A DNA stretch of 28,997 nucleotides, from assembly GCA_001275005.1 (NCBI GenBank), contig JWZX01003051.1:1-28997 (forward strand). The letters run 5' to 3'. Positions 8,064-27,524 of this stretch are shown here, piece by piece. Position 1 is the first letter of the stretch. Every line of letters starts with the position of its first letter. A program made the position numbers and the translations under genes. Source of the DNA: Chrysochromulina tobinii. Taxonomy: Eukaryota; Haptophyta; Prymnesiales; Chrysochromulinaceae. The notes under the pieces were generated by a model, which saw only the letters and a program-made list of their open reading frames with translations, ran no database searches and was not told the DNA's origin.

Positions 8064-11000
8064 ATGGCTGTCCAGCGACCCGCCACGGTCGCGTGCCTCC
8101 TCCTCGTTATCGCGCTCGCTTCCGCCGCGTGCCCCGGCGGCTGGTCGCACTGGGACGTGGGCAACAAGTGCTACAGGTTGACCGCGGGGCTGTTCAACGC
8201 CTATGGGTGCGCGGCAGCGTGCATCAGCTTGGGGGTATCAACCACCGACGCGTTTCAACCATCCACGCTCGCGTGCATCAGCTCAAGCGCGGAGTCCGAC
8301 TTTGTCACCACGCTCACGAGCGGCCTAGCTGCCGATAAGAGCGCTTACAGCTCTTACGTGTGGATCGGGCATCACCAGTCGCCCGGCAGCGTGGAGCCCG
8401 GTGGCGGGTGGGACACGTGCGCGTCGGGCGAAAGGGCCAACTTCACCAACTGGGGTGAGGGGCAGCCGGACGATGCGAACGATGATGGGACAGCCGGTCT
8501 CAACGCGGATGGTTTTCTCCGATGGCCGACGAGGGCGCAGTGCGCCGTCCTCGGCCAACCCTGCTATGCCTGCACGTACGACAAGTGGTACGACCATCCA
8601 TGCTATTTTGCCTATCCATGCTTGTGCGAGCTTGGGTCGCCCGCCTCCGCCGAGTACCTCTCATCCGTCGGAGCGGACATCGAGGAAGAGCTGCAGCAGC
8701 TCCGCAAGGGTGTGGCCATCCTCTATGGCGCAATCATTCCCGCGCTCTGGCTTGTCCCCGCCTTCCTTCGCGCCTGCTTCCGCCTCGCCTCCAGCAGAAT
8801 CTGCCCGACCCGAGACTCGTCTGCCTCCTCGGCCGACGCGTCGTCGGCCGACGCATCGGAGAAGATGACGATGACTCTGGAAAGGCTCGAGGACGCGGAG
8901 AAAAATGGCAAACGGCTCCGTTTGCGCGTGAGCAGCACGCTCGCGCAGCTCGGCTGGATGCTACTGGTCTTGGGGCTTGCACAGACGGCATTCATGGTCT
9001 ACATCATCGACCTCACGCCCGTCGCGGGCGCCTCCCTGTGCTATTTGGCCGCCGTGCCGTGGGGCTTCGCCTTCCAAGGCCTCGCGCTGCGCCCTACTGA
9101 CGAAGGAGCCATTCGCATCGCGTGCGCCGTCGGCTTCCTCTCCTTTTTCTTCATCGGTCTGCTTCTTGCCTGGCTGTCCGTTTCAGACAGCGCGTTCGCC
9201 TCCGACGTCCGATCAATCGTCATCGCCGGTCAAGCTCTCGCCGCCGCCGCCAGTGCGATATGCACCGTGCTCCTCTCGACAACAATGAACATGCGCTTCG
9301 TGTGCCGCAATAAGGAGCAATTCAAAGCAGTCGCGATAAGGTTGCAGGCAATTCAGCGCGGCAAGACGGCTCCCCACGAGGTAAACAAGGCGAAAAAGGC
9401 ATATGACTTGGAGGCGGCAAAGAATGCGGGGTCGAAAGAGGCGTCTTCTGCCCATTACGCTCTTGAGAAGGCCGAAGAGCGCGAGAAAGCTGCCAATAGT
9501 CATCTCGAAGAGCGCGAGAAAGCTGCCAATAGTCATCTCGAGCTCCTGAAGGAGCTGAAGGATTTGACGTCAAAAGAGCAGCAGGAGCAGGCGATTGATC
9601 TGTGCAAGGACTACCTGGGCAAGCAGCACACTGACAAGGATGCGGCGTGGAAGAAGCTCGATGAGCACATCGAAGCAAGCCAAGTCGAACCAGGCCGACT
9701 CAAAGCCTGGTCCGCTCTTGAGAAGGCCAAAGTGCGCGAGGAAGCTGCCAAGAAGCATCTCAAGTTCCTGGAAGAGCTGAAGAAGTTGAAGTCAGAAGAG
9801 CAGAAGGAGCAGGCGATCAATCTGTGCAAGGACTACCTGGACAAGACGCACACTGACAAGGATGCGGCGTGGAAGGAGCTCGATGAGCACATCGAAGCAA
9901 GCCAAGTCGAACCAGGCCGACTCAAAGCCATTCAAAGTACATCAAAACAAACACGTGAGAAGGCCAAAGTGCGCAAGGAAGCTGCCGAGAAGCATCTCGA
10001 GTTCCTGGAAAAGCTGAAGGAGTTGACGTCAGAAGAGCAGAAGGAGCAGGCGATCGATCTGTGCAAGAAGTACCTGGACAAGCAGCACACTGACAAGGAT
10101 GCGGCGTGGAAGGAGCTCACTGAGCACATCGGAGCAAGCCAAGTCAAACCAGGCCGACTCAAAGCCATTCAAAATACATCAAAACAAACACGATCTGTTT
10201 CGGGGAGCGCCGCCAAGCTGGCATCGAAGCTCTTGGGGCTATTTGGCATTGATGCCAACGAGGCATTTGTGGCTGTTGAGACATTCTGCGGCCGGAGCGG
10301 TGGAGAAGCTGGAGGTGAAGCGGTAGCCATTCAAAGCACGCTCACCGCGCGCGACATCACCTCGTTCAAGGACTTCGCCGATGCCTATAGAATACAAGTC
10401 TTGACAATGATGCCGCTCAACCTGTGGTTCGCGTTCCGCCTCGCCTTTATCGGGAAAGTGGTCTACTACCGCAACAAGAAGTCGTATGAGATTATGTGGA
10501 CGAAGCCGTCAGCACTCAAGCTCAACGATCTGAAAGTGCGGAAGCTCAAGGTGCGTGACACGATCGATCATCTGAAGGCAGCTGGTCGAAATGAGTCGAA
10601 GCAGGTGCTCGAGAAGATCGATGAACTAGAAAAGGAGGAGAGTGAGCTGGAGCGAATGTACGTTAGGGAATTGGATGCTCACGCTAAGGCTCGCGATCTC
10701 GAGCTCAAGACTGACCAGGAGAAGGGGGGAGCAGAGAAGGCGGCAGCAGCAGAAGCAGGGGACTGGATGGAGTTCACCCTCGAGTATACAATGGCGCCAC
10801 GCCGCCAGCTGCGCCGCTTGTGGCTCGTGCTCCGCCTCTTCTTCAGCGGAGGTGCGCTCTTCTGTTTCGCCATCTTCATCAGCACTGTGCTGTATGTGCC
10901 GATCGATCCCAGCGGCCCGACCCCGTTTGCACTCTGGATCCTCCTCGGCGCCAATTTACTCGCCGCCGCGCTCGTCTTCACGCGCGCCAACCGCGGCCGC

Positions 11001-12137
11001 GTTGTGGCGTGGCTCGGCACGCTCGGCAAGACCGACGATGCCGACAACAAGGCCGCGGCGCTCGCGGCGCTCGTCGGCAGCCTCTCCGCTGCCAAGGCGT
11101 TCAAGCTGGGAATTGATAACTTCCGGAAGCTGGATCTCGATAATCTTAAGGTAGAAGAGATCGCCGGGCGCAAGGCGGAGACAGTCGCCGGGGACTGGAA
11201 AACATCGCCCGGCTGGCCCACCCTGGAGTTGTATAACAAGACGTCCCAAGCGAAGTTCGGCCAAGTCGACGCCTTCATCTCGCACTCGTGGTCCGACGAC
11301 GGCGTCGCCAAGTTCAATTGCTTGCGTTATTGGAAGGAGGAAGAGTTAAGGAAGGCTAAGGCTAATGGAGAGGATAAGAAAGATGTGACCATCTGGCTCG
11401 ACAAGGCGTGCCTGAACCAGAGAGACATCCAAGCGAGCCTCGCGGGGCTACCCGTCTTCATCTCGGGCTGCAAGCACCTCCTCGTGCTCGCGGGGGACAC
11501 GTACGCGTCTCGGCTGTGGTGCGTGATTGAGCTCTTCGTCTTCGTGCAATTGGGCCGCAATGTGAAGGAAAACATGATCGTGAAGCTGCTGAACGTGAGC
11601 GACACACCCGACTTACAGAACCAGAACAAAACTGCAGAAGACCTTGTGAAATTCGACGCGGGCAAGGCGGAGACCTTCGACCCGAACGACAGGCAGAGGC
11701 TGTTGGCGGTGATCGAGGCGTCGTTCGGCACCTTCACCCCGTTCAACAAAATCATACGTGCCACATATCCAACTGCAAAACTGAAGGCAAGTGCTGTCTC
11801 TGTTATTTCTGGGGACTCGCTCACACTGACTCCTACCTTTGAAAACGGAATGAACGTACAGATTACGTCGGATGATGGGGTCTCAGACCCCATTTCCGAG
11901 TGGAAATCAGGCCGTTCCTCAACCGTTAAGCCCACATCGACCACCAAATACACTTTGACAGTCGAATCGCCGAACGGCATCAAGGTGTCTACGAGCGTCA
12001 CGATCAAAGTCGAGACTGTCGAGACCCGAACGTCAGATTCACCTTCTGCAAAACGAAAACCGCTGGAGAAAAAAGCCTCACGGAAATCCGTCGCCTCTAC
12101 AGGCAATCTGAGTCAGGTGCACCCAGCGCCTGCATAG
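8064..12137 (+). CDS. C-type lectin / multi-TM / coiled-coil / TIR-like receptor
   Basis: A 1357-residue single-exon protein started at the ATG at 8064; the frame reaches 8046 only with a TTG. Order: signal peptide (~1-22); C-type lectin domain (~23-192) with WIG (100-102), NFTNWGEGQPDD (126-137, including the QPD motif known from galactose-type lectins), a WYD in place of WND, and paired Cys ending PCLCEL. About five membrane spans follow (~220-405). Then comes a Lys/Glu coiled-coil region (~415-710) of three ~80-residue repeats, a second helical region (~815-885) and two further spans (~918-973). A TIR-like domain (~1068-1180) follows, with DAFISHSWSDD, IWLDKACLNQ and SRLWCVIELF. An Ig/PKD-like module (~1243-1316) and a basic tail end the protein. 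Seven spans would put the lectin domain outside and TIR inside. The proposed role is glycan sensing and signalling, which is inference. Confidence 0.85.
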   Translation: MAVQRPATVACLLLVIALASAACPGGWSHWDVGNKCYRLTAGLFNAYGCAAACISLGVSTTDAFQPSTLACISSSAESDFVTTLTSGLAADKSAYSSYVWIGHHQSPGSVEPGGGWDTCASGERANFTNWGEGQPDDANDDGTAGLNADGFLRWPTRAQCAVLGQPCYACTYDKWYDHPCYFAYPCLCELGSPASAEYLSSVGADIEEELQQLRKGVAILYGAIIPALWLVPAFLRACFRLASSRICPTRDSSASSADASSADASEKMTMTLERLEDAEKNGKRLRLRVSSTLAQLGWMLLVLGLAQTAFMVYIIDLTPVAGASLCYLAAVPWGFAFQGLALRPTDEGAIRIACAVGFLSFFFIGLLLAWLSVSDSAFASDVRSIVIAGQALAAAASAICTVLLSTTMNMRFVCRNKEQFKAVAIRLQAIQRGKTAPHEVNKAKKAYDLEAAKNAGSKEASSAHYALEKAEEREKAANSHLEEREKAANSHLELLKELKDLTSKEQQEQAIDLCKDYLGKQHTDKDAAWKKLDEHIEASQVEPGRLKAWSALEKAKVREEAAKKHLKFLEELKKLKSEEQKEQAINLCKDYLDKTHTDKDAAWKELDEHIEASQVEPGRLKAIQSTSKQTREKAKVRKEAAEKHLEFLEKLKELTSEEQKEQAIDLCKKYLDKQHTDKDAAWKELTEHIGASQVKPGRLKAIQNTSKQTRSVSGSAAKLASKLLGLFGIDANEAFVAVETFCGRSGGEAGGEAVAIQSTLTARDITSFKDFADAYRIQVLTMMPLNLWFAFRLAFIGKVVYYRNKKSYEIMWTKPSALKLNDLKVRKLKVRDTIDHLKAAGRNESKQVLEKIDELEKEESELERMYVRELDAHAKARDLELKTDQEKGGAEKAAAAEAGDWMEFTLEYTMAPRRQLRRLWLVLRLFFSGGALFCFAIFISTVLYVPIDPSGPTPFALWILLGANLLAAALVFTRANRGRVVAWLGTLGKTDDADNKAAALAALVGSLSAAKAFKLGIDNFRKLDLDNLKVEEIAGRKAETVAGDWKTSPGWPTLELYNKTSQAKFGQVDAFISHSWSDDGVAKFNCLRYWKEEELRKAKANGEDKKDVTIWLDKACLNQRDIQASLAGLPVFISGCKHLLVLAGDTYASRLWCVIELFVFVQLGRNVKENMIVKLLNVSDTPDLQNQNKTAEDLVKFDAGKAETFDPNDRQRLLAVIEASFGTFTPFNKIIRATYPTAKLKASAVSVISGDSLTLTPTFENGMNVQITSDDGVSDPISEWKSGRSSTVKPTSTTKYTLTVESPNGIKVSTSVTIKVETVETRTSDSPSAKRKPLEKKASRKSVASTGNLSQVHPAPA
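9459..10193 (+). repeat. Three ~240-bp in-frame repeats encoding the coiled coil
   Basis: Three consecutive units (about 9459-9710, 9711-9956, 9957-10193) encode segments starting EKA(K/E)xREEAA and ending HIEASQVEPGRLKA. They agree in long stretches at the DNA level, including silent sites. Each carries the segment TDKDAAWKELDEHI with one or two changes. Unit 1 holds an extra exact 33-bp tandem duplication at 9474-9506 and 9507-9539 (encoding EEREKAANSHL twice). Confidence 0.85.
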
Positions 12138-12897: not shown

Positions 12898-14110
12898 TCA
12901 CAGGCCAAAGACGCCCAATGGCCTGTCGCTCGCGATCAATGGCTTGCTGGCGGGCGCTGCTGGCGTAACGGTTGACGTAACGGTTGCGGCGGGAGGGCTC
13001 GGCCACCCAAGCCAGAAGCCAGCGCAGTTGCGTAGCGGGCCGCGATCGTAGGGGCGCATGTCGGGTGGCAGCTTGGCAGCAGCGTTGATGCGCTCGCGCC
13101 GTAAGTGCTCCCACGTCGTCTCGCCCCGCGCGATCAGGCCGCACTGGAAGAGAAGGAGCGACACGCTCAGGAGCCCGAGCACGCTCGACATGCCCACGCA
13201 GCCCACAGAGCCGAGCCCTGAAAGCACCGGCACCGGCCCAAGAGGCGTTGGGCTCGTGTACGCGCCGCGCGCGACAAAGACTCCAAAAGAGCAAATCAGG
13301 GTCGCCTGGCACACGAGGTAGCACAGGAAGACGCGGTGGTTGCCCACGCCCACGCAATTGCCCACCCACCAGCAGTGGTGGTCGAGCCGGTTCACGCAGC
13401 GGCCGCAATCGTAGCAGTGCTGTCGGGCGAGACGTCGAGAATGCCCAGTCAGCAACAGCCGCCGCATCCGCCGCATCCGCATCCGCATCCGCATCCGCCG
13501 CAGCCGCAGCAGCAGACGCAGCAGACGCAGCAGACGCAGCAGCCGCAGCCGCAGCCGCAGCCGCCGCAGCAGCAGCAGCATCGCGCAACATGTGAAGAGG
13601 CAAGCGTGTGCGCAGCGGGGCGAGCGCTACGGCAGCGCGCGCTGACCCAGTGCACGGTGGCCATTAGGTGCTCACCTTAGCCCGTGGCAACTGCCCCGCC
13701 TGGCAGAGCGTGCACTGCGGCAGCTCTAGCAACGGCTTCTCTCTAGGGTTGGCCTCGACATCGCTCGGCGGCAGGTATCCGGGATCCTTAAGCCCTGCGG
13801 CGATGTAGAGCACCGTTGTCATCCCGGCGAGCGTCCAAAAGAGCTGGCCTTCGGGCCAGAGCGGCAGGTTGCCCGAGAGGTAGAGGAGCAGCATGCCGAA
13901 TGCATGGAAGCCAATCCACGTGAGCCGAGCGCAAGTTGGGTCGGTCTTCGTGCGCTCCACGAGTGGCTCGGGGTCGTTGTCGTTCATGTCGTCAAGCAGA
14001 GTGCCTACTGGCCCGCCGCCGTGAACATGTTCGAGGCGGCGAGGTTGAGGTTCGTCAATGAGACGTCGTTTGATTTTTTCTTTGGGGCAAGCCCCGAAAA
14101 ACACAACCAT
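12898..14110 (-). CDS. DHHC palmitoyltransferase, two exons
   Basis: Exon 1 is 14110-13676 (145 codons) and exon 2 is 13419-12898, giving 318 residues; the intron is 13675-13420. The phase-0 join AAG/GTGAGC...CGACAG/CAC restores PRAKHCYDCGRCVNRLDHHC, exactly the zinc-finger DHHC consensus. Cys-rich domain: C133-x2-C136, H146-C147, C150, C153, D158-H-H-C161, C167. C161 is the expected acyl-carrying Cys. Two spans precede it, ending with the family's DPG motif (DPGYLPP, 109-115). Two spans follow, with the TTxE motif (TTWEHL) and a PaCCT-like RPYDRGPLRNCAGFW segment near the C-terminus. The protein S-acylates proteins at endomembranes. Odd: W162 replaces the usual Pro after DHHC. The intron is largely triplet repeat. 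Confidence 0.93.
13420..13675 (-). other. Intron of the DHHC gene, 256 nt
   Basis: A GT-AG intron (donor GTGAGC, acceptor CCGACAG) in phase 0. It was placed because the join rebuilds the DHHC zinc-binding consensus. Much of its interior is triplet repeat (see separate entry). It interrupts the Cys-rich domain between its second Cys and the HC pair. Confidence 0.9.
13455..13581. repeat. Triplet/hexanucleotide repeat tract in the DHHC intron
   Basis: On the plus strand the tract mixes CAG, CCG, GACGCAGCA and CATCCG units: (CCGCAT)n near 13461-13500, (CAGACG)-type units near 13510-13540, then CAGCCG and CAG runs to about 13580. Different frames read polyalanine, poly-Ala-Asp or Gln/Pro, which creates long false open frames. 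Such tracts can form hairpins and vary in length. Confidence 0.8.
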
Positions 14111-21323: not shown

Positions 21324-24300
21324 GCGAGCGCCTTCCACCGATCGACGAGCATCTTCGCACGCGGCGCGAGGCTCGTCTCGCCCTTTTTGATCGCATTGAC
21401 CGCCTTGCCCGCGCCGCTCGCCGCGAGGAGAGCGAGCGTCATCGGCATCACCTCGAGCTCCGCGAGCGCCGCACTGAGCTCCTCGAGGGCGGATGAGTCC
21501 ATCCGCTTCACGCACGCGACGGCTCGTTCGACGAGCTTGGGGTCAGCCGGCGCGCTGGAAGACGACGCGGCGGGCGCGGCCGCTGCCGGCGGCGGCTTCG
21601 GCTTTGGCTTCGGCGCCTCCTCCTCCACAGCCTCCTCCACCTTGGGCTCCGCCTTGGGCCGCTTCACGGCCTTCGACTTGCCGTCCACCAACTCCTCATC
21701 GACATGCGCAGCGCGCTTGCGCTCCTGCGCAGCCGCCGCCTTCTCCGCCTTTTCAGCCGCCGCCTTCGCCTTGGCCGCCTTCTCTGCGGCCGCCTCTCGC
21801 TCGGCCACCTCCTTCTGTGCCATCTTGAGCTTGGCGCGCTCCCTCGCGGCACGCTCGATCGCCTCCCGCTCCGCCTTCGCCTTCTCGGCCGCCGCCTCGG
21901 CCGCCTTCACAGCTCCCTCGGAGTCGCCCCCCGCCCTCCCAGGCCCCTCGGCGCCCTCGGCGCCCTTCTCGGGCTCCTTGCGCTTCTTGCTCGCGGCCGC
22001 CTTCTTCTCCTCCTCACGCCTCTCGAGCTCGTCAAATTGCTTGATGAGCAGCTTGTTCTCGCGCTTGTTCGCGCCGACCTTTTCGAGCAGCTCGGCGAGC
22101 TCCTTGTTCACACCCTTCTCGTACTCGTCCATCTGCGCGCGCAGCGTCGCCGCCTCCTCGGCCGCGCTCCCCTCCAGCTTGCCGCCGCTCTCTGCCTCCT
22201 TGGCATCGAGCTCCGCGCGCTTGGCCGCGAGCTTCTCCAGCCGCTGGCGCTTTTTGGCCACCAGCTGGTCGATCTCCTCGCGCGCTTCCTTGAGGCGCTT
22301 CATCTGCTGCATCACCTCGCGCACGGCTGGTGGCTTGGACGAGCCCCCCCCCTCTCCCTTGGGTTTACGAGGCGCCTTGTTGGGCGTCGCGCCCTTGGGC
22401 TCCAGTCCTTTTGCACGACGTACTGCCTCCGCCTGGGTCTCGCCTCCCGCCTCCTTGAAGGCGGCAAGCTCGCGCTCGTACCGCGCCTTATCCTCGGCCG
22501 CCTCCTGCTCGTACAGCCATGGGAGGCGATACATGGCGCTCAGAGGCGCATTCAGGCGCATTCAGGCGCATTCAGGCGCATTCAGGGGCGATCAGGGGCG
22601 TTAGGGGCGTCAGGGGCACTCCTTCGAGCGCACCTGCTCATACGGCTTCCGTGCGTCCTCATCCATGGCCTTCCACAGCTCACTCACGATCTTGGAGACT
22701 GCGCCCATGTCCGCGGTCGGGTGCTCCGCCTTGACCGCCGCACGCCGAGACGCCATGAAGTGCATGTACGCATTCGCTGGTCTCTTGGGCTCGCCGGTAG
22801 CTTCGCGTGCCGCCTTATTCTCGGCCGCCTTGGAGCGCGCTGTCTTGGGCTTGGGGGCTTCGTCAGCGCCGCCCTCGCCCTTGGGCCTGCGCTTACCCGA
22901 GCGCGACTTCTTGATGAGAGAGCTCCCTTCGCCCTTCTCGCCCTCGGCGCCCTCCTCGTCTTCCTCGTCCTCGTCCTCGGCGGCAAACTCATCCCCCGAC
23001 GATGGCGCGTCCTCCTCCTCCTCCTCCTCCTCCCCGCTCGCCTCTTCCGCCTCGCCCTCGCCCTCCCGCTTCGTCATCCGATGGGTGCCCTCGCCCGCCA
23101 GCTTCATCGTGATGCCATGCTTCGCCTTCTTCGAGGCAGCCTTACCCGTTGCACCCTTGACCTTACGCTTGACACCCTTGACCTGCTGCCGCCGCCAGCG
23201 AGAGTACTGCTCGAATGCTTTGGAGAGCGCCAGCTGCACGCACGCGCCCGCACGCGCCTCATCTGAGCTCGCAGCGTCCTTATAGACCGTGCGCGCCGCA
23301 TCGAGCGCTGCCGTGCGCTCGGACGCTTGCGCCGCCTCCTCGTCAGAGCTGTCCACATCCGCCGCCGCGGAGATGAACGCCGAGATCGACTTTGCGCCCG
23401 CCAGCTTCATCGTGACGCCATGCTTCGCCTTCTTCGAGGCAGCCTTACCCGTTGCACCCGATTTGGGACCCTTGGAGAGCGCGGCCTTCGACCTCTGCGG
23501 ACGCTTGGCGCCACCGCTGCTGCCCGCGCCGCCGCCTGCTGCCGCTTCGTCATCGCTCGAATCGGGCGCCACCGGCGTCGTCTCGAGCCACTTGCCACTC
23601 GTCGCGCTCCACGTCATCTTGAGGCCATTCGCGCCCTTGGGCGCCGCGCCGACGGGCCGCTTGTGCAGGCCCTTGGTCGGCTTGTCGGTGGAGGCGCCCG
23701 CCTCTTCGTCGCTCGAGTCACCGGCGCCCATGGGCTCCGCCGCCTCCTCGCCCTCCTCGTCCTCCTCGCCCTCCTCCTCGCCCTCCTCCTCGCCCTCCTC
23801 GTCCTCCTCAATCTCGAGGTCGGGCTCGACGGGCGACGGGTTGGCGATCTCCGCCTCGGCCTCCTCAACGCCCAGCTTGAAGCCGCGCACCGACGCGGGC
23901 TTCTTCTTGTGCGCCACCTCGGCCTCCTTGAGGCACTTCTCCTTTCCTTCGGCCCACGACATCGTGCGGTTGCAGTACGCGAATTGGTTCGTGCCGAAGT
24001 AGCGCACAAAGGTCCAGCCTCCGTCGCGCATGTGGCGGTCGGGGCCCCGCTCCTCGCGCGCGACGATCGCCGGCCAGTACACGTAGCCCACCTGCTTAGC
24101 CCAGAGGACGGTGCCAAGCGGGCCAGCCGGCGGTGGCGGCATGGGCACCTTGGCCCTCTTAGGTGCGGCTGGCTCCTCCGCTTCGTCGCCATCCTCTCCC
24201 TCGCCCTCCTTGGCCGGCGCGGCATCCTCCATGTCGGCGTCCTCCTCGTCCGCCTCCTTTTTCGGGGCATCTTCGTTCATCCTGTCCAAGCAAATCTGGT

Positions 24301-26214: not shown

Positions 26215-27524
26215 ATGCGCCTTCATTTGCACACCCTGCTCGCCGTGAGCCTCCAGCACCCAGGTCCAGCAGCCCGCCATGTTCATCCGCCACGCATGCA
26301 CATGCCACGTCCGGCCCCGTCCGGAGGCATTACGGCCAAAGAGGCCGCTGACGCACATCTTGCCAGCCTCGGCTACGGGCCTGGCGGCCGCACGGAGGCC
26401 ATGCGCCCCAAGGTGGGTGCGCCGATGCCCGAAGGCCGTCGGCCCGATTGGTTTCATGTGCCTGCGCCCGGCGGAGCCAACACACGCTTCGCCGACCTCA
26501 AGGAATCGCTGGAGAAAACGGCCCACGAGGGCAAGCCACGGCTGGCAACCGTGTGCGAGGAGGCGCAGTGCCCAAACATTGGCGAGTGCTGGAATGGTGG
26601 CACGGCGACGATCATGCTGCTCGGCGATACGTGCACGCGTGGGTGCAAATTTTGGTGCGAGCCGCGTCCTCTCGACGCCCCTCCGCCCCCACGCTCCACC
26701 GGGGCCCTCCCTCGCAATACGTCGCACTCGGGGGTTCTCTGACTCGCGAGTCCGCTGCCCCGCTCGGCTCTGTGTGTGCGCGCAGCGCGGTGAAGACGGA
26801 CGCGGCGCCCGAGCCGCCCGACGAGGAGGAGCCTTGGAACACTGCGGACGCCGTCACGCAGTGGGGTGTGGACTACATAGTGCTCACGTCCGTGGACCGC
26901 GACGACCTTCCCGACGGCGGCGCGGCGCACTTTGCACAGACGGTGGGTCTGCTCAAGTTGCGAAAGCCGTCGCTGCGTGTCGAGTGCCTCGTGTCCGACT
27001 TCCAGGGCGACCTTAAATCGGTCGCGATGCTCGCCCAGTCGGGCCTCGACGTCTACGCGCACAACATCGAGACGGTGGAGCGTCTGCAGCCCTTTGTACG
27101 CGACAAGCGCGCGAGCTACAAGCAGTCGCTCTCGGTACTCAAGGAGGCGAAGCGGCTGGGCGAGCTGCCGGGGGCGCAGCGTGTGTACACCAAGTCGTCC
27201 ATCATGCTCGGCCTCGGTGAGACTGAGGCCGAGATCCTACAGACGATGCACGACCTTCGCCAAGTCGGAGTGGACGTGCTCACGCTGGGTCAATACCTGC
27301 GCCCGACAGACCATCATCTCGCTGTCGTTGACTACGTGACGCCAGAGCGTTTCGAGTACTACCGGCAGCAGGGCGAGGCGATGGGCTTCCGGTACGTGGC
27401 GAGTGGCCCGATGGTGCGCTCCTCGTATAAGGCAGGCGAGCTGTTCATGGCGGCGATGATGGATCGCGATCGTTCGGAGGCGGAGATAAAGGAGCCAAGC
27501 TGGAATCCTGCGCTCGCGATCTAG
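26215..27524 (+). CDS. LIAS: Lipoyl synthase (mitochondrial-type), two exons
   Basis: Exon 1 is 26215-26654 and exon 2 is 26786-27524, giving 392 residues; the intron is 26655-26785 (131 nt, phase 2; donor GTGCGA, acceptor GCGCAG). The join gives CTRGCKFCAVKT, completing the radical-SAM motif. Auxiliary cluster: C114-x4-C119-x5-C125 ([12 protein letters not shown]). SAM cluster: C140-x3-C144-x2-C147. The C-terminal RSSYKAG (358-364) supplies the conserved Ser ligand. Other signatures: [38 protein letters not shown] and [13 protein letters not shown]. The enzyme inserts two sulfurs into octanoyl chains on lipoyl-dependent enzymes. The first ~40 residues ([20 protein letters not shown]) are Arg/His-rich with no acids, fitting an organelle-targeting leader. 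The start ATG at 26215 follows AAAA. A mitochondrial rather than plastid form is inferred, not shown. Confidence 0.95.

Follow-up and report, generated by a model that had tools for sequence, protein, structure and literature searches.

Phytoplankton are unicellular and live under constant viral and bacterial attack, and to our knowledge the surface receptors that they hold against viruses and bacteria are largely unknown. Lectin receptors of the Dectin-1 and Mincle type have one membrane helix and no TIR domain; plant TIR-NLRs are cytosolic and carry NB-ARC and leucine-rich repeats (LRRs). Passages of published work describe Toll-like receptors of choanoflagellates (PMC6040629), TIR architectures in an anemone (PMC5094078), and unusually built TIR and lectin proteins in ctenophores, with no lectin–TIR chain in the passages shown (PMC11797021). 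For E. huxleyi, the parts available deal with lipid rafts and the hypothesis of a viral lectin and a host TIR-NB-LRR (PMC4236053), and report no LRR receptors (PMC2939053). Here we analyse a gene on a 28,997-nucleotide stretch of Chrysochromulina tobinii DNA (contig JWZX01003051.1; the window hereafter means this whole stretch), whose single reading frame encodes a C-type lectin-like domain predicted to lie outside the cell, seven predicted membrane helices and a TIR-like domain predicted to lie inside.

Layout and topology of the protein

The core that the protein shares with its family is a lectin, membrane helices and a TIR domain, and we consider it fairly probable that the whole is a one-component membrane receptor with a sensing role. 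The features of this core are as follows:

8064..12137, + strand: whole reading frame, 1357 codons plus stop
8064..8129, + strand: signal peptide, residues 1–22 (by eye; hydropathy peak at 7–25)
8130..8633, + strand: C-type lectin domain, residues 23–190 (profile match; fold from the homologous domain in homologue P0008)
8463..8471, + strand: QPD triplet, residues 134–136, in the usual sugar-site loop
8706..8768, + strand: membrane helix 1, residues 215–235 (hydropathy; family charge test)
8958..9272, + strand: membrane helices 2–5, residues 299–403 (hydropathy, structure model, family charge test)
10824..10982, + strand: membrane helices 6–7, residues 921–973 (hydropathy, structure model, family charge test)
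11259..11759, + strand: TIR domain, residues 1066–1232 (profile, structure comparison, alignment)
11529..11531, + strand: Glu1156 in YASRLWCVIEL, aligning with WCLDEL of the plant TIR RPP1

An in-frame stop lies just before 8016, and the 1357 codons are then open from 8064 on the + strand. A chance open frame was ruled out, as 1373 open codons would arise with a probability of ~5e-18 at the base composition of the window, and GC content differs between the codon positions of the frame, as in coding DNA. No second copy of the gene was found in the window, where tblastn of the protein returned itself only. Along the chain, the signal peptide and lectin (23–190) are followed by helix 1, helices 2–5, a long cytosolic insert with repeats, helices 6–7, the TIR domain and a probable Ig-like tail. 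A sequence-only reading of this DNA had listed a signal peptide, a C-type lectin, about seven spans, a repeat and a TIR domain in one uninterrupted frame of 1357 codons, all of which is confirmed here, with the seven spans now grouped 1+4+2.

To place the two domains relative to the membrane, helix positions were taken from the seven helices of the P0008 structure model, and lysines and arginines (K+R) up to 12 residues from the helix ends were counted in 28 members, picked as lectin-bearing out of the 74 rows in alignment A2. The mean K+R was 17.2 on the predicted inner side compared to 2.7 on the outer side, with inner exceeding outer in 28/28 members. The orientation with the lectin outside and the TIR domain inside, which the sequence-only reading had proposed, is thus well supported as a prediction. 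At least one N-glycosylation sequon occurs in the ectodomain of 26 of the 28 members; the window protein has one in its short ectodomain and six elsewhere, so that sequons alone are indecisive for topology. G-protein-coupled receptors (GPCRs) appear among the Foldseek rows only weakly, at a probability of 0.20 or less, and the helices are split 1+4+2.

The lectin and TIR domains

By profile and by the structure model of its homologue P0008, the N-terminal domain is predicted to have a C-type lectin fold. Pfam Lectin_C matches above its cut-off in P0009, P0010, P0033 and P0056 and below it in P0003, P0005 and P0048. The QPD triplet favours galactose-type sugars; further downstream, WYD (residues 175–177) stands where WND is usual. 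As the window protein has QPD, its lectin may bind a glycan; 12 close relatives carry YPS or FPS at this site, and P0013 carries YPD. Eight relatives (P0014–P0021) share a conserved hydrophobic insertion of ~50 residues within the lectin's long-loop region; this insertion may be a loop, an extra helix or an unspliced intron.

The C-terminal domain is modelled as a TIR fold, and each of the three structure comparisons places TIR structures at the top for this region, with plant NADase TIRs as the best Foldseek rows. The SRLWC..E stretch matches the plant TIR RPP1 in sequence alignment only (E 0.11), and from this alignment alone Glu1156 would correspond to the catalytic glutamate of TIR NADases on the alpha-C helix. 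Glutamate is kept at this position in 95 of 102 homologues (six gaps and one Pro). We put the chance that the domain cleaves nicotinamide adenine dinucleotide (NAD) at about even. With Pfam TIR_2, P0040 gives a match at E 0.0064. Neither NCBIfam nor PADLOC returned a TIR or defence model for the TIR domain of the window protein, and a profile of the wider membrane–TIR alignment found no TIR match in the PDB (best E 0.14, unrelated). A near-identical metagenome copy, P0002, differs from the window protein only at residues 1138 and 1145, both within the TIR domain.

A family of lectin-to-TIR proteins

Homologues were collected by a search with the whole protein (20 matches) and one with the membrane–TIR part of P0013 (99 matches), giving a union of 102 (P0002–P0103). 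The family TIR profile matches all 102, and the family lectin profile, trained on 18 of the 40 lectin-bearing members, finds lectin and TIR together in 40/102 (37 under a stricter rule); Pfam Lectin_C is independently precomputed for 17/102. The lectin-bearing members span ~650–1392 residues. The recurrence of the lectin-to-TIR order in 40 homologues makes a chance fusion or two adjoining genes unlikely, and the idea of a lone architecture has to be given up, as the window protein is one member of a multi-gene family. In 31 members well covered in both domains, pairwise identities of lectin and TIR are correlated (r 0.80; Mantel p 0.0001, 9999 permutations), which is expected if both domains have long been in one gene. 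Mean identity is 0.48 for the lectin compared to 0.60 for the TIR domain; the lectin diverges faster, as expected of a recognition part.

At least one relative carries a different ectodomain. P0063 has LRRs before its membrane helices and TIR domain (Pfam LRR_1 E 1.8e-6, above cut-off), and matches the TIR and helix 6–7 profiles but, at E 0.01, not the helix 2–5 profile, so that the membrane part is a related rather than an identical one. P0067 groups with it (support 97) and is LRR-like by eye, with Pfam reporting a glycosyltransferase fragment only. On a 90-row tree, the lectin requires at least 19 gains or losses, seven of them forced by strong branches; no history is claimed from this, because several of the rows without a lectin are incomplete gene calls (P0006 begins within the lectin). 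By eye, the C-terminal half of P0056 contains a further domain behind the TIR, with a SHAW...DYAC pattern and distinct from the first, which may belong to another TIR-like family of protists. P0067 and P0099, from gene calls made without splicing, contain in-frame insertions within the TIR domain that resemble retained introns.

A viral origin or mimic was rejected, given no confirmed viral relative in two pattern-based contig scans and, among the 50 rows listed from a viral structure library, lectin and TIR matches on separate chains. Two scans of viral contigs gave 3 and 44 pattern matches and one scan of contigs from 84,980 prokaryote species gave 26, none confirmed, although with two to six exact peptide patterns these scans are weak evidence of absence. 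In the viral structure library, the best lectin match was a poxvirus lectin (E 5e-4) and the best TIR match a TIR/WD40 protein from a Tetraselmis virus (E 0.096); none of the 50 rows listed joined lectin and TIR in one chain.

Accessory inserts and tail

Three further features lie outside the core:

9508..10168, + strand: tandem repeat of 237 nucleotides (79 residues) × 2.9 in a cytosolic loop, charged and helical-looking
10416..10511, + strand: WW-like element, residues 785–816 (by eye; candidate identity)
11769..12023, + strand: probable Ig-like (PKD-type) tail, residues 1236–1320 (structure comparison, weak)

The repeats and the tail had been counted among the parts of the architecture; lectin, helices and TIR stand as its core, but these two are accessories of a few close relatives. 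The 79-residue repeat occurs as one copy in 6/102 homologues, all close relatives, and as three in P0002, and the tail is found by pattern in 8/102. A WW-like pattern is present in 12/102 (Pfam WW E 0.21 in P0010), and the element is modelled as a helix and strands, with the helix where the first strand would be expected. Elsewhere in the family, the cytosolic inserts vary: P0005 (E 1.6e-6, narrowly under the cut-off) and P0024 carry EF-hands, P0048 has a double zinc ribbon (E 2.8e-8), and weak matches were obtained to RRM (E 0.012, P0003) and to IQ (E 0.14, P0009). An assignment of the repeats to effector-associated domain 11 (EAD11) was not adopted (E 0.0014; 19 bits compared to a cut-off of 26; 30/80 positions). 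Between copies 2 and 3 of the repeat, 14 changes are non-synonymous and none is synonymous, which is not significant (Fisher p 0.075) and hints at diversification or unusual recombination; positive selection is not claimed, with p values of 0.26 and 0.17 in the other comparisons.

Proposed mechanism and alternatives

In the proposed mechanism, the lectin would bind, at the cell surface, glycans carried by microbes, viruses, prey or partner cells, and this binding would cluster the receptor. Once clustered, the TIR domains could come together and act either by drawing in further TIR proteins or by cleaving NAD via the conserved glutamate, and a defence or recognition response would start from this step. 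The variable cytosolic inserts (repeats, EF-hands or zinc ribbons, depending on the member) may tune or localise the signal. Of the one-component glycan receptor put forward in the sequence-only reading, the single chain with lectin out and TIR in is supported, and glycan sensing is a proposal. Several observations weigh against this reading. The presence of TIR in all 102 homologues is partly by construction, the second query being the membrane–TIR region, and none of the 102 is a lectin-bearing homologue from a transcriptome source (P0066, from MMETSP, is without a lectin). The lectin profile score of the window protein is below the curated cut-off, its Pfam TIR_2 match is at E 0.039 (14.9 bits compared to a cut-off of 28), and no Foldseek TIR match for the TIR region reaches E 0.001 or better. 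QPD is also lost in several relatives (YPS/FPS), so perhaps not all of them bind sugar.

The weak Pfam TIR scores, together with the lack of a TIR model in NCBIfam and PADLOC, would suit a Rossmann-type domain of another family without TIR function. We regard this as very improbable, as TIR structures occupy the rows of this region in every structure comparison, UniRef names P0071 a TIR domain protein and TIR_2 reaches P0040 at E 0.0064. Even less credible is an artefact in which two genes, or a stretch that is spliced out, are read as one frame: introns do occur in this genome, one of them in the lipoyl synthase gene of the window, and the insertions of P0067 and P0099 look like retained introns, but the lectin-to-TIR order runs without a stop in 40 homologues of differing lengths, and the two domains co-diverge.

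Two further alternatives concern how the receptor would signal, and to what end. The TIR domain could be a docking scaffold that is not an enzyme and signals via other TIR proteins, an option that deserves serious attention although we lean against it, since glutamate is so widely kept where plant NADases have theirs and the best Foldseek rows are plant NADase TIRs. The same architecture could also have a job other than defence, in recognising prey (by a phagotrophic alga), a mating partner or substrate glycans. C-type lectins serve adhesion besides immunity, nothing in the sequence names the ligand, and many divergent copies suit cell–cell recognition equally with immunity; TIR domains are, however, mostly parts of immune or cell-death signalling, and the LRR-bearing P0063 resembles pathogen receptors, so that we think a non-defence job unlikely. 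If the lectin-to-TIR receptor family is real, it would offer a concrete set of genes for testing algal immunity, show a separate assembly of ectodomain, membrane part and TIR, and add to animals and choanoflagellates a further group of organisms with cell-surface TIR signalling.

Genomic setting

The neighbours of the gene are eukaryotic: a mitochondrial carrier, a histone-fold protein, an MFS transporter, and DHHC, RING and PWWP/HMG proteins. The lipoyl synthase (LipA) gene has a 130-nucleotide GT-AG intron at 26656–26785, which is evidence for nuclear eukaryotic DNA in the window. A quick tree of 63 lipoyl synthases puts the one from the window in a 39-row group (support 99) with Coccolithus braarudii, the only named haptophyte in the tree, and apart from brown algae and diatoms; this makes a haptophyte-like host probable. 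A 409-residue frame at 486–1715 (− strand) contains several hydrophobic stretches, and Pfam gave no match to it at E 0.001. Short tandem repeats lie at 22544–22618 and 13450–13580, including 10-nucleotide units of AGGCGCATTC and GCA-rich runs.

Comparison with known systems

As far as our searches go, the domains are of known kinds, and the combination of lectin, seven helices and TIR is undescribed within the open-licence literature searched. No description of a lectin–membrane–TIR protein in algae was found in its full texts; the sequence-only reading had not recognised the architecture from animals, plants or bacteria. Compared with animal C-type lectin receptors, whose structures were set against the lectin fold (Dectin-1, Mincle and the REG3A fold), the window protein joins its lectin to seven helices and a TIR domain in one chain. 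Plant TIR-NLRs (RPP1, RUN1 and SNC1) provide the closest TIR structures by Foldseek, and the WC..E stretch aligns, but they have no lectin and no membrane helices. Also close are the algal membrane–TIR proteins of Triparma strigata (P0071), Symbiodinium (P0088), Diacronema lutheri (P0097) and the MMETSP source (P0066), which show a number of hydrophobic spans ahead of a TIR domain from this subfamily and differ in that no lectin domain was detected in these four.

Toll-like receptors, including the choanoflagellate Kinase TLRs in the passages available (PMC6040629), likewise have a signal peptide, an ectodomain, a membrane anchor and a cytosolic TIR domain in one chain. They differ in having one membrane helix where the window protein has seven, an LRR ectodomain where it has a lectin (LRRs being found only in P0063), and a TIR sequence that in the window protein lies outside the Pfam TIR cut-offs. 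A published search, in the part available, was limited to proteins with one membrane helix and a match to the Pfam TIR model, so the lectin–TIR family would have been invisible to it. A tentative wider reading, to which we give somewhat less than even weight, is that haptophytes and other algae have a Toll-like system of their own, which senses microbes or viruses and cleaves NAD, with a shared polytopic membrane–TIR part, swappable ectodomains (lectin, LRRs and others) and swappable inserts (EF-hand, zinc ribbon and repeats). The window protein shares with Toll-like receptors a C-terminal TIR domain that is predicted to be cytosolic, and its host may thus have its own counterpart of these animal receptors.
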